Below the pieces are notes generated by a model that saw nothing but the letters and a program-made list of their open reading frames with translations, did no database searches and was not told where the DNA came from. From positions 40,208,989 to 40,272,988 of the forward strand of contig CM067353.1 of NCBI GenBank assembly GCA_034190875.2: DNA of 64,000 nt. The letters are read 5' to 3'. The translations under genes were made by a program, and so were the position numbers. Source of the DNA: Urechis unicinctus (lineage: Eukaryota; Annelida; Polychaeta; Xenopneusta; Urechidae). Shown in pieces: positions 10,738 through 64,000 of this stretch. Each line of letters starts with the position of its first letter. Position 1 is the stretch's first letter.

Positions 10738-11070
10738 TATTAATGCGTGTAGTTGGGTATGCCTGCCGCTTTGTTAGCAAATCCCCAACCGATAACAACA
10801 GGCTTTCATGAATTGCCTTCATTATGCGATGGGTTGCTCGTAATCCAATAACCCTTCTGCTTAAATAGTCTGCTGGGGTTCATAAATGTTCTGTGGACAA
10901 TCGCCTGTTTGTTATATATGGTTACATTAGTATTCCTGGGAGAGAGCTAACTTCAATAGGTCTAGTAATGCATGTGTGGCGATAGCCTGCTAGGATAGAA
11001 TCATCCCTACATTGGTGACATAGTATCAAGCGCCATGTTTGTATAGACACAATCATTCTTTGTATCTCTA
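10738..11070 (+). repeat. Block M, copy 1
   Basis: Aligns with 26268-26830 and 56197-56785. Shared phrases include ctgggagagagctaac near 10937 and gtggcgatagcct near 10976. The right part of the block is replaced here by the CATA microsatellite. It contains one of five copies of a roughly 250-300 base module that also occurs inside both N blocks. Confidence 0.75.
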
Positions 11071-11084
11071 TACAACTGTAAATA

Positions 11085-11510
11085 TCCATACATACATACA
11101 TACATACATACATACATACATACATACATACATACATACATACATACATACATACATACATACATACATACATACATACATACATACATACATACATACA
11201 TACATACATACATACATACATACATACATACATACATACATATACATACATACATACATACATACATACATACATACATACATACATACATACATACGTA
11301 CATCCATGCATACATACATACATGCATACATACATACATACATACATACATACATACATACATACATACATACATCCATGCATACATACATAAATACATA
11401 CATACATACATACATGCATGTATGTATATACACATATACAAATACATGCATGCATACATACATACAAACATATTCATATGTATGTATGTATGTATGTATG
11501 TACGTACGTT
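11085..11510. repeat. (CATA)n microsatellite with terminal (TATG)n
   Basis: About 370 bases of CATA units with scattered variants (a single TATACATA interruption near 11241, ACGTACATCCATG variants from 11296) are followed at about 11478-11503 by TATG units, the complementary repeat. The region is open in several frames on both strands (Tyr-Ile-His-Thr and Met-Tyr-Val-Cys repeats up to 181 codons), but these are products of the repeat, not genes. Confidence 0.97.
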
Positions 11511-12514
11511 TGTTTTTATGAATTTATGTATGTAAGTATTTATGTGTGTGCATTAATGTGTGACTGCGAGCATGTTTATATGAGCGTATGTATGCATATA
11601 TGCATTGTGTAACCCTGTATATAATGTTAATGTGTGAAAGCATTCGAGCGCGGTAATTGAGCCATAATTGTAGTAATACATTGCGTCTGATATTGATATA
11701 TTTAAAAATGTTACAAAACAAGACTTTAAATCGATCTGTAAGACTAAGCCAATGGGACTGTAGCCTGGCCATCGCATTTATGGTACGTGACACCTTCAAG
11801 CTCTATACGAGACTTATCAGGGTGATTATTGCCGGCTTGAGTATTGTATGCAACCTGCCTAGGTACGTCAATGACATATCATTGTGATCGGTGTACAAAT
11901 TGGTGTATAGGATATATGAACACGTGTATGGAATAATGTTGATCCAACTGATACATTGCTGCCATATATAATGCTGTCATACGGTATCTAAACTTCAGTT
12001 GGTTTGCTCTAACCTTTGAACCGCATAGGGTCTTAATGTGCGTACATATCCATTGCTATACTACATTAACTTGTTCGATGCACGGTGCTGTGTAAGTATA
12101 GTATCAAGGTTGTTATTGTCATAGAACCAGACGATATATTAGATAAACAATGCCCCCATATGACTCACCCATTGGTCGCTAGCGTCGTCATTGGTAGGGA
12201 CTTGTATGAAGGCTGTGCGGATGGTTAAATTGTGATACAGCAGAATGTTTACATGGTCAACCTAAAAAGCCACGAGTGCTTATGTTATTTGCATTAGGGT
12301 TTCAAAATGCCGTAAGGCCGAGGTATGGAATTGTTATTATCATTATAATTGAACATGATTACAATGCGTTTATGTCAGCATTTCTTGTCAGTGGCATTGT
12401 CTCTCGTGGCCGACTAGGCGTTGAATTAAGTTGTTGTTCACGCAGTACCTCTGATGTGGTTGTGATGTTTAGCACGTAAATCCTCAGTCCTTGGGGGGCA
12501 TATTTAATACTTCT
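11511..12514. other. Unassigned DNA between microsatellites
   Basis: No open frame above 91 codons and no copy elsewhere in the window. The sequence is ordinary AT-rich DNA. A 67-codon plus frame at 12276-12479 has no supporting feature. Confidence 0.5.
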
Positions 12515-13194
12515 TATATGTATATATATATATATATATATATATATATATATATATATATATATATATATATATATATATATATATATATATATATAGA
12601 GATATATATATATAGATATATATATATATATACATATATATATATATATATATATATATATAATATTTAGATATATACATATATATTTATATATATATAT
12701 GTATGATTACATATATTTATATATATATATATATATATATCTCTATATGTACTAACATATAAAGATATATGTATATATATAAATATATATATATATATAT
12801 ATATATATATATATACGTATTTATATATATACGTATTTCTCTATATAAATATATATATATATATATATATATACATATATATAAACATATAAACGTACAT
12901 TTATATATATATATATTTTATGTATACAATATATATATATATATTTAAACAAATATACATATATATATATATACACGCAAATAAATATCTATATATATAT
13001 ATTTATAAATATATATTTATATATATTATATATATATAATATATATATATATATATGTATGATTATATATATATGTGCTAATATATAAACATATATATAT
13101 ACATATATGAATATATATATATATATATATATATATATATATATATATATATATGTATATATATATATATATATATATATATATATATATAGAT
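12515..13194. repeat. Long degenerate (TA)n array
   Basis: About 680 bases of nearly uninterrupted TA repeats with GATA, ACGT and TTTA variants that break it into sub-tracts. It gives spurious Tyr-Ile frames on both strands. Confidence 0.97.
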
Positions 13195-13453
13195 TTATTA
13201 CGTCTTTTTTTTTGCGTCACATTCGATCAAACCTTGGCCTAGTATAAAAACTGTGAGCCCTATTTATTTGATATAATGTACCCTATAATGTATTGCAAGC
13301 ATAATATATCGAATCAGCTTTTGTTGCCTAACCTTATTAGAAGCATGAGGGGAACCTTCTGGCCTGGCACTGCAATTATGTAATATCTTTCGCTTAATAT
13401 CACTCAGTAAATCTAACCAGCCAATGGCAATTATTGGCTGATGGGAAATATGC
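13195..13453. other. Unique island between two TA arrays
   Basis: About 260 bases of mixed-composition DNA set between two TA arrays. It contains ccaatggcaattattggctg (13421-13440), an imperfect hairpin. A 63-codon minus frame spans it (13264-13455) without any recognisable motif. Confidence 0.4.
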
Positions 13454-61147: not shown

Positions 61148-61720
61148 ATCATAATTATCATCCTCATTATTCAAATTTTTCTTAACTGAGTATGATTGAT
61201 ACGCACATGCGTATCTTTAGCTAACGAATTCAAAGCACCTCGTACGATGGTAATCACCAACATAGGCTTGCTAATGACTTGCTTTAAGGCATTACAAAGC
61301 ATAATAGGGCGTCAATCTGATATCATGTAGCGAGGCTCGTATCATCTTAAAGGCTCACATTAACAGGCGGCAATCAAAAAACGTTATTCACTGGCAAACC
61401 AATAATGACTAGCTCATAGTTAAAGGTTTAAAGTAAATCAATGAACAAGATCACTATTCTGAGTGAATTTAATTGAATCCAGTTTTGGTGATAATTTACG
61501 TTCGTCAGTTAAGATGCACAATATATTTACACACGAGTCACGCAACCAACGCCTCCTATCTTAGTTTAAAACAGCTACAAATCTCCAACTAGTTGCAGTG
61601 TTTTTGTGCCGCTGAAGTACTCTGCTTGTCGTTATCATGTTACTGACTAGGGACGTATTGCACCCTCTAGCAAACCAGATAGAAAACAGCATTCATCAGG
61701 CGAGTCGAAACTGTACGATA

Positions 61721-61884
61721 AAGTCTTATAAGTGGCAATATTTTATCTAAGAAAATATTGTGTTTTTGATAGAGGCTGCGTAAGTGAAACGTGATTGAGA
61801 GTCCGCTTCGACGTTAAAATGCACTTGGCTCGATATTGAGCATCGAATGCGGGTGTCCGAATGTGGTATCAAATAACATTTGGT
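61721..61884 (+). repeat. Block P, truncated copy B
   Basis: Only the first roughly 170 bases of P remain, ending after gaatgtggtatcaaataaca. The sequence then passes directly to block Q, so the rest of P and the TA array seen in unit 1 are missing. Confidence 0.8.
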
Positions 61885-62785
61885 CTCTGATTTCCGCTGC
61901 TTAAATACCTGGTTATTGTAAATGGCTAGTAAGGGCTGTGCATTCGATTATTCACTTGTTTACTGCATTACTATTCTTCATGGTATGTACTGTGCCTGAA
62001 ATATTTTACAAGATGTCTACTCTAGAAGTCGTTAACAAAATAAAACATTTCGACTGACGATAGATCAAAGTGCTGGCTGTCAAGAAGATGCATGGTGTAA
62101 GCTGGGTGGATGCTTTTAACTGATCATCGCGTTTTATCGGTCAACGACCATGAGGTACGATAAAAGCTTTGCTGCGTTTGCATAAACACAATTTATCATT
62201 GTCTGTTAGAGGTTATGTAACGAGAAATGTCCTCCTAAACATTAGAATGAAAAAAAGTCGATGACATAGCATCTCCGATACGGATAAGATTAAACTTTAT
62301 ATGGCAATACGAAATGCTATTTAATTGGGCGATAAGAGAGGGCATCTTAATGCCTGAAATTTAAGTACTGGGTTGTCTGGAAGAAACAGCCTTAGTTAAC
62401 ACCACCCATTCTTAATGCTGATGAGATTCACTATGCAAGGAAGCCGCGGAAATTAAACGTTACGAATTGTTTACCATAATTGTCGACCATGTATGTACAA
62501 ATGCTGCTTTAAGTACCCATATTTCGTTTGTTTAGATACTGAATAGATTGGTCTATTGGTACGTTATTCACAGAGTGGTAAAACCGCGACGCGTGCTGTG
62601 GTTTTAAATTACTAGTTAATGTAAGTTAATATACAATTTAATAGTAGCATCCAAGATTAGCCAGACAACATACACCGTATTATAAACTTTCATCAAACTC
62701 TATATGCAAAAATGAACTGCTATACAGACGATTGCGTCTATAATGTTGTGACCTGAAAACCAAATTCGCCTTTCAATACCTACAG
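61885..62785 (+). repeat. Block Q, copy B
   Basis: Aligns with 20320-21177 with few gaps and with 31725-32790 more loosely. Anchors are tttcgactgacgatagatca near 62046 and cacagagtggtaaaacc near 62568. Confidence 0.9.
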
Positions 62786-62835
62786 TTAGGCATATCTGAT
62801 GTAGATATGTTTCATGACAGAACGCCGGCGTCGCA

Positions 62836-64000
62836 GTTGTCTGCACGGGATGGGTTTGACTTTGAGCATGATGCATTACAAACGGTCCTGCTGTATACTC
62901 TGCAGAACCATACAGAAAATATTAGTTTAGGCCTGATACCAGAAATTGGCTTCGAATGGGTCAGCTACATGCTTATTGCTTAGTTTTGTGCCAATTTGGA
63001 TTGCAGCCAACGGGAATATGGCGAAGTGGACCTAGCCGTTACCACAATAAGCGCATAAGCACTGGGTTTATAGGCAGCACAACGGATAGCCGTCTGGACG
63101 CCCATACGAATAATATAAAGTATGTCATGAGGCTTCTGCCTATATAAATACCCGGATATCTTCGTGATCTCATATTATTTGATACTTGAAATCAATGTCT
63201 TGCTGCGTCTTGATAACTGGTTACTTAGATATATTGTAGGGGTGTTAGTATGGCTGACCCCGAAATACAGGTTTGGCAATGAAATGGAAAAATCTAAGAA
63301 TGATAGGTAATGGTTGGGCCACGTTCAATGAAACCGTTCACAACTTCTGCAGTTCCACTATAAGTCACAAACCTTTGCACACTGTTTACACACATCTGCC
63401 TGAAGGGAAGTCTTATCGGTTAGGGAATATGCCTATGTATCAGCCAGTCAGCTGAGCTATTCAGAAAATATACATGTGATTGTTATATGCGGTTTCATAC
63501 ATACATACATATATTTATACGTATTCATATTGAAGCCGTGTGCCCTAATGTAGTGCTTGACTTTGGTATTGTTAACAACTCATTTTGCCATGCATCACAC
63601 TACAAATTGATTGCTATGGACTGCCAGCACATAGAGCTAATCACTAATATAGCAACGAGGGATCAAACTACATGCTTCGAATTGCTCGAGGCTATATGTC
63701 CTGATTCATATATTGCCGGATAACATATATTACGGGGCGACATTGCACAATAGGTGCGTAATAATCAGGTAGATGTGAATCAATTAGAACCAATATTGTG
63801 GTGTCTTCCCTGCATCGGATCCGAAAATATTGCAGAGAATTACACCGCTACAACCATGTGGCAGATGCTTTACCAATGAAATCAGTATCGTTATAACCGA
63901 TATCGAATGCATTCAGCTATTAGTCACCTATCTAATATGCTGTACGTTTGCCTATTCTACCCTTATCTTGCAAATGAAGTACATTCTGCAGCCGCCCTAT
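62836..64000 (+). repeat. Block R, copy B, cut by window end
   Basis: Collinear with 21178-22302 up to the last base of the window. It contains the 78-codon frame at 63487-63723 that pairs with 21818-22003. If the unit order holds, a further E block should follow beyond the window. Confidence 0.9.

Follow-up and report, generated by a model that had tools for sequence, protein, structure and literature searches.

The 64,000-nucleotide stretch of the Urechis unicinctus genome analyzed here (the window; contig CM067353.1, called C12 below, positions 40208989–40272988) carries part of an array of large non-coding repeats in which two diverged monomers, which we call L and S, alternate. C12 is 90,777,602 bases long and belongs to a 1.19-Gb assembly of 926 contigs. 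Left (40008989–40208988) and right (40272989–40332988) flanks, 15,000 bases of which read as N, were joined to the window to form a 324-kb region. Coordinates in this region are marked r and equal the C12 position minus 40008988; window positions equal r minus 200000. The array begins at ~40.1 Mb and sits at 44% of the 90.78-Mb contig, and the subtelomeric location considered in the initial annotation of the window is therefore not borne out.

Monomer L is the block string A, B, C, D1–D4, E1, E2, F1, F2, F3, and monomer S the string G1, G2, H, D4', E1', E2', F1', F3'; single copies have blocks missing. An inverted L-type tail lies on the minus strand of the window (5039–10490; F3 5039–6300, F2 6944–9073, F1 9095–10490) and forms the right end of a ~30-kb inverted segment. 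The L lineage of its F3 and F1 is supported by divergence and tree analysis. The blocks that follow are in plus orientation. Copy L3 has block A at 10528–11079, placed by the block map and core matches, with a 300-bp core element (10759–11058) inside. A CATA/TATG microsatellite (11087–11549) lies 5' of block B (11550–12479, from the block map), and a TA microsatellite (12515–13887) separates B from block C (13894–14965; core element 14474–14756 inside). Blocks D1–D4 (15016–19910), E1 and E2 (20150–22304), and F1 (22541–24230) complete L3, the last being an inverted relative of 9095–10490.

Copy S3 starts (24306–26605) with G1 (24306–24880, core on the minus strand), G2 (25153–25600), an AT microsatellite, and H (26062–26605, core 26321–26595), and continues (28086–34292) with D4' (28086–28863), E1' (31573–32786), F1' (32874–33470), and F3' (33513–34292). 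The remainder of the S segment (34.3–54.2 kb) repeats in patches too. It holds the S3 tail J (34351–44789), with a patchy match to r181.9–189.2k (inverted) and r161–162k; X (46371–52373), a relative of a young 4.1-kb tandem unit at r89–106k; and K (52649–54200), which matches r109–110k and r163–164k. The start of L4 (54219–56538) holds a G1-type block (54288–54849, core on the minus strand) and a further core on the plus strand (56248–56531). L4 continues (58087–64000) with C (58087–59191, core 58692–58981), D1–D4 (59243–61879), E1 (61930–62775), and E2 (62841–64000, cut by the window end). The three units of the initial annotation are thus L3 (10.5–24.2 kb), S3 (24.3–34.3 kb and its tail), and L4 (from ~54–56 kb). 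Their recurrence in order stands, but the middle one (26.3–34.2 kb), instead of being the first with deletions, belongs to another monomer lineage.

The repeat of ordered blocks is real, and its order exceeds chance. With microsatellites masked beforehand, comparison of the window with itself aligned 13894–22304 with 58087–64000 in one collinear plus-strand series (75–88% identity) and 19306–23601 with 28086–33470 (66–75% identity). Self-comparison of the window with its flanks, the check proposed by the initial annotation, revealed long collinear matches spanning ~r88k–317k. Relatives within the 324-kb region were found for 84.7% of the 49,586 unmasked bases of window positions 10738–64000, and for 82.8% of bases in r105–318k. 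The figure for the left flank, a stretch with separate duplicates, is 28.5%. As a control, r105–318k was reversed without complementing and gave no matches. Window 5.0–26.6 kb defined the reference order, against which 81 block calls were scored; these start at r105k and span 150 bp or more, so that shorter calls and five G1-type calls to the left of r105k did not count. Cyclic order was kept in 58 of 80 neighbor steps and, with the reference unit excluded, in 45 of 64 (20,000 shuffles: mean 10.2, maximum 24), although these counts overstate the independent evidence because contiguous homology was cut into sub-blocks. Within the window, once the reference unit is left out, the order held in 10 of 15 steps for blocks of at least 100 bp (shuffles: mean 2.3, maximum 8). 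The shared order of recurring non-coding blocks first noticed in the window is upheld by these results.

Five L and five S copies alternate without exception across r119–317k (chance 0.008 under random order), the assignment of copies being our own, from the block map and trees. Copies L2 and S4 are short, and S2 is inverted. The A-to-A distances are 48.7 kb (L1–L2) and 42.4 kb (L2–L3), and the C-to-C distance of L3–L4 is 44.2 kb. The period is mostly 42–49 kb and holds one L and one S; the unit of 14–16 kb initially supposed covers part of it. The first readable block matches to the right of the window are S-type, D4' (r269162) and E1' (r272069), consistent with the dimer order. Forward orientation is found in 71 of 81 blocks. 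The ~30-kb inverted segment (r180.5–210.5k), read on the other strand, consists of an L end, an S monomer, and a core, which suggests that it was inverted in place. Microsatellites sit at matching joints common to several copies: a CATA array lies directly 5' of B in all four B copies, and AT/TA arrays occur close to E1, C, and H in a number of copies.

L and S form separate clades with support of 0.999–1.000 in trees of E1, F3, D4, and F1. Kimura two-parameter distances (K) are 0.23–0.39 between L and S (counting G1, whose L type was assigned by position), 0.12–0.19 among L copies, and 0.02–0.17 among S copies. As divergence within a kind is mostly 0.10–0.19 and star-like, the L+S dimers probably spread within a short period, in one burst followed by decay.

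The core element model has 25 matches, on either strand, in the 324-kb region, and 23 of these extend over 150 model positions or more. Core subtypes recur mostly at matching places, conservation between types reaches ~480 bp, and mean pairwise identity is 0.68 (n=19, three near-identical tandem copies and cores below 200 bases having been dropped). Similarly, short stretches of E1 (~300 bp) and F3 (~250 bp) recur amid surroundings that are otherwise without match. The left margin of the array (r89–106k, flank loci L017–L019) holds the 4.1-kb tandem unit in about four copies, 96–99% alike and with a core element inside; it is a young amplification.

Genome-wide searches score the best candidates alone, which leaves absence elsewhere unproven. 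The core had 22 matches, of which 20 are on C12 (40.099–40.420 Mb) and two on an unplaced contig, C56. F3 had 15 (14 on C12, one on C56), a 229-base part of F3 had 13 (12 and one), and E1 had 21 (18 on C12, two on C56, one on contig C15). For parts of A and B, among the matches listed, those outside microsatellites are on C12. Two outlying relatives were used as queries as well. The E1 relative at 49.09 Mb had 16 matches, with 15 on C12 (40.16–40.90, 41.77–41.91, and 49.09 Mb) and one on C56, and all 18 matches of the F3 relative at 40.59 Mb are on C12 (40.15–41.73 Mb). Five queries (core, F3, E1, and the two outlying relatives) thus gave 92 matches, 85 on C12, six on C56, and one on C15, a total in which one place may count under more than one query. 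The block-by-block genome search called for at the outset is answered to this extent, with nearly all matches on C12.

To the right of the 324-kb region, dense F3-island relatives occupy C12:40.36–40.84 Mb (L038–L043 and places matched by the F3 relative of 40.59 Mb), some 98–99% alike, at steps of ~48–55 kb; copies at 40.491 and 40.539 Mb are 98–99% like the one at 40.59 Mb, the steps being 47.7 and 55.3 kb. Two E1-island relatives 7.3 Mb apart (C12:41774477–41774846 and C12:49087810–49089536) are 99–100% identical over 370 bases and represent a recent long-distance copy within C12. A 1.36-kb tandem pair is present at 49.09 Mb. C56 (22,792 bases, L035) has an S-type stretch that is 93% like r305–307k and 85% like r307.6–309k, and which is either an additional copy or part of the other haplotype.

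The left flank carries animal-type genes: branching-enzyme-like open reading frames (ORFs), a sushi-repeat ORF, and three sulfatase ORFs. The sulfatase ORFs are open and in tandem (L014:4975–6540, L015:1652–3508, and L015:7206–8897; C12:40.064–40.078 Mb). The branching-enzyme-like ORFs are a near-identical pair on the minus strand (L010:1175–2167 and L010:8021–9022), locally duplicated at an offset of ~6.9 kb, and the first of them matched Pfam Branch. At the right edge of the 324-kb region, two long ORFs on the plus strand (L034:6855–8960) had no Pfam match. A search for egg lysin yielded nothing here and nothing in any of 14 controls, and is therefore uninformative.

An unlikely account of the array makes it a functional locus comparable to Firre or DXZ4, non-coding, with local repeats that organize chromatin or lie in a long non-coding RNA (lncRNA) and are kept on one chromosome by selection. 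The near confinement of the repeats to one contig (85 of 92 matches) agrees with it and with how PMC4820808 defines local repeats. Covariation folding gave weak evidence of RNA structure in the core, with z −2.25 on one strand but −0.36 on the other. Of the 60 distinct 90-nt windows with the most stable folds in r105–318k, 42 have homologs, and 32 of 118 homologs fold at or below −24 kcal/mol; stability is lost in most homolog groups, whereas some matching windows, such as r309480 with all three of its homologs, stay moderately stable. No sign of constraint appeared in any tested block. Private substitutions were Poisson-like in ten of ten sets (D3 counted twice; variance/mean 0.34–1.31, p 0.14–0.91), mean lineage correlations were −0.25 to 0.10, and the conserved columns of the core did not cluster. 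Within the modest power of these tests, the units look neutral since the burst. CTCF, CENP-B, and RNA polymerase III motifs were scanned. Two spellings of a CTCF-like motif occur zero times and once in the array and once and twice in the left flank; the motif is not enriched, which says little here.

Rfam yielded no match at gathering score in the window and flank loci L017–L034. A relaxed threshold gave 42 matches in the window, none of which reached gathering score; 41 lie within or next to microsatellites. ARAGORN (bacterial code) detected no tRNA genes in the window and the 18 loci L017–L034. Near-perfect palindromes of ~80 bp at r298980, r133230, and r135120 fold at −48 to −55 kcal/mol and are perhaps small insertions resembling miniature inverted-repeat transposable elements.

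It is quite unlikely that the array is non-coding DNA left over from a tandem gene cluster, with exons that decayed or lie in stretches reading N. A sulfatase cluster adjoins the array, the short islands shared by distant copies are exon-like in length, and part of the flanks does read N. However, a codon-phase test of 1,355 aligned pairs, which marked the sulfatases strongly (up to 41 per unit depth) as positive control, found no such bias in the array, where the best windows (11.6 and 8.2) had frame-breaking gaps and came near what chance may give over that number of windows. The F3 island, in five outlying and eight array copies, has stops and single-base gaps and no phase bias. Ten window ORFs yielded no Pfam family over cut-off (eight were without match and two had weak ones below cut-off), and L3, which is readable throughout, has no visible gene. 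Coding units are not supported by the codon-phase, Pfam, and F3-island frame tests. An origin from the sulfatase cluster was rejected: sulfatase domains have 107 matches genome-wide, and those at C12 40–42 Mb are confined to the three left-flank genes, with a weak one at 43.16 Mb.

The initial annotation had also proposed a very large non-coding mobile element. Such an element, or one that spreads locally, is very unlikely: the core does occur in both orientations and in varied surroundings, and islands recur far off on C12, but the copies alternate in a tandem arrangement, and one contig accounts for 85 of the 92 matches to the five queries. A transposase-like ORF (L031:6223–7467, minus strand, TNP-like) and a reverse transcriptase piece (L033:6718–7107, minus strand) lie between homologous array blocks and are likely later insertions. 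An assembly artefact, in the form of haplotype copies or chimeric joins, is extremely unlikely, because most same-kind copies on C12 differ by K 0.10–0.19, with private changes and insertions, even though the 22.8-kb C56 holds another S-type stretch similar to r305–309k.

The array is, with good probability, a two-level tandem segmental duplication, non-coding and specific to its chromosome, that has decayed. If an L+S dimer was amplified in tandem and then decayed neutrally, this would account for the order, the alternation, the star-like divergence, the microsatellite joints, and the confinement. The tandem, alternating, and ordered copies bear out the old tandem or segmental duplication supposed initially. 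L and S would descend from one ancestral monomer. Most copying of the L+S dimer would then have taken place within a brief span, through either unequal exchange or replication-based tandem duplication, and the core copies, which are scattered in both orientations, may have seeded it. Inversion, insertions, and deletions would subsequently have broken up the array, and exchange between copies would have become rare. We infer the exchange mechanism from young copies nearby, where the same kind of event has continued, in the 4.1-kb tandem unit (96–99% alike) and at the places 48–55 kb apart (98–99% alike). The array apparently does nothing specific for the cell and is now neutral.

Several observations weigh against this account. 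Two pairs of copies have distances far below the others (F1 in S1 versus S2, K 0.02; G1 at r224306 versus r305517, K 0.05), which points to later exchange, so that exchange between copies never stopped wholly. The C-to-C distance of L4–L5 is merely 21.9 kb. The islands of 200–480 bp in unrelated surroundings are not explained by plain tandem duplication. The fold at r309480, two short stems instead of a single long hairpin, is fairly stable in three of three homologs (four of four S-type copies). The constraint test had ~2–16 changes per bin, with gapped columns dropped, and the 92-match total covers queries other than blocks C, D, F1–F2, G, J, and X.

A pericentromeric place is possible, given the position of the array at 44% of C12. 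On a wider reading, which takes in the outlying relatives at 40.4–41.9 and 49.1 Mb and sees the window as old layers beside young ones, the locus would be a chromosome-specific organizing region, renewed through one large tandem duplication after another, that marks a pericentromeric or chromatin-boundary domain in mid-C12; we regard this as distinctly improbable. Under the two-level tandem duplication that we favor, one place preserves the birth of a very large non-coding tandem repeat, from monomer to diverged pair to dimer burst, and its decay as well, through inversion, insertions, and little homogenization, and younger duplications lie nearby along C12. A reading of raw sequence detects such an array at 65–88% identity, yet underestimated its period ~threefold.

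Higher-order repeats of the alpha-satellite type are built from monomers of ~171 bp. As in these, diverged monomers (L and S) have been multiplied jointly in the array, with greater divergence between L and S than within either kind, and with alternation. The array differs in having monomers of 10–30 kb, few copies, and little homogenization, and its higher-order copies are not near-identical (K mostly 0.10–0.19, apart from the two closer pairs). Shared coding exons, as in tandem gene clusters, are absent from the readable stretches by the codon-phase test and in the F3 island, and genome-wide dispersed copies, as in transposable elements, were not found among the best candidates scored for the five queries.

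The array looks like a macrosatellite that has aged, or like Firre-type local repeats. The macrosatellites DXZ4, D4Z4, RS447, and SST1 have units of several kb that are 97–99.7% identical, and they share with the array large units, mostly one orientation, and a tie to one chromosome, according to the available text of PMC3018141. The tandem units of the array are likewise at least of this size, its period of 42–49 kb exceeding the examples in that text, and occupy one or two chromosomal places (85 of 92 matches on C12, six on unplaced C56, one on C15). Membership fails because of identity (K within a kind mostly 0.10–0.19) and interrupted orientation (71 of 81 blocks forward, the ~30-kb inversion, and insertions). 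The available text of PMC4820808 describes Firre local repeats as repeated in one locus, interspersed, and nearly absent elsewhere, like the array, with a within-species identity of 85–93%. Firre is a transcribed lncRNA with CTCF bound at one repeat (PMC4820808, same part). The blocks of the array keep a higher-order arrangement, unlike the Firre repeats as described there. The array nearly fits the definition of local repeats given in that text; it is nearly confined to C12, yet has relatives as far off as 41.9 and 49.1 Mb and a single match on C15.

A literature search, made without the name of the host, found no description of such an array, which does not show that it is unpublished. Chromosome-specific segmental duplications, or low-copy repeats, as generally understood, are like the array low in copy number, large, on the same chromosome, and layered into old and young. 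The array differs from them in the regular alternation of its two monomers and in having no recognized gene in its readable units.

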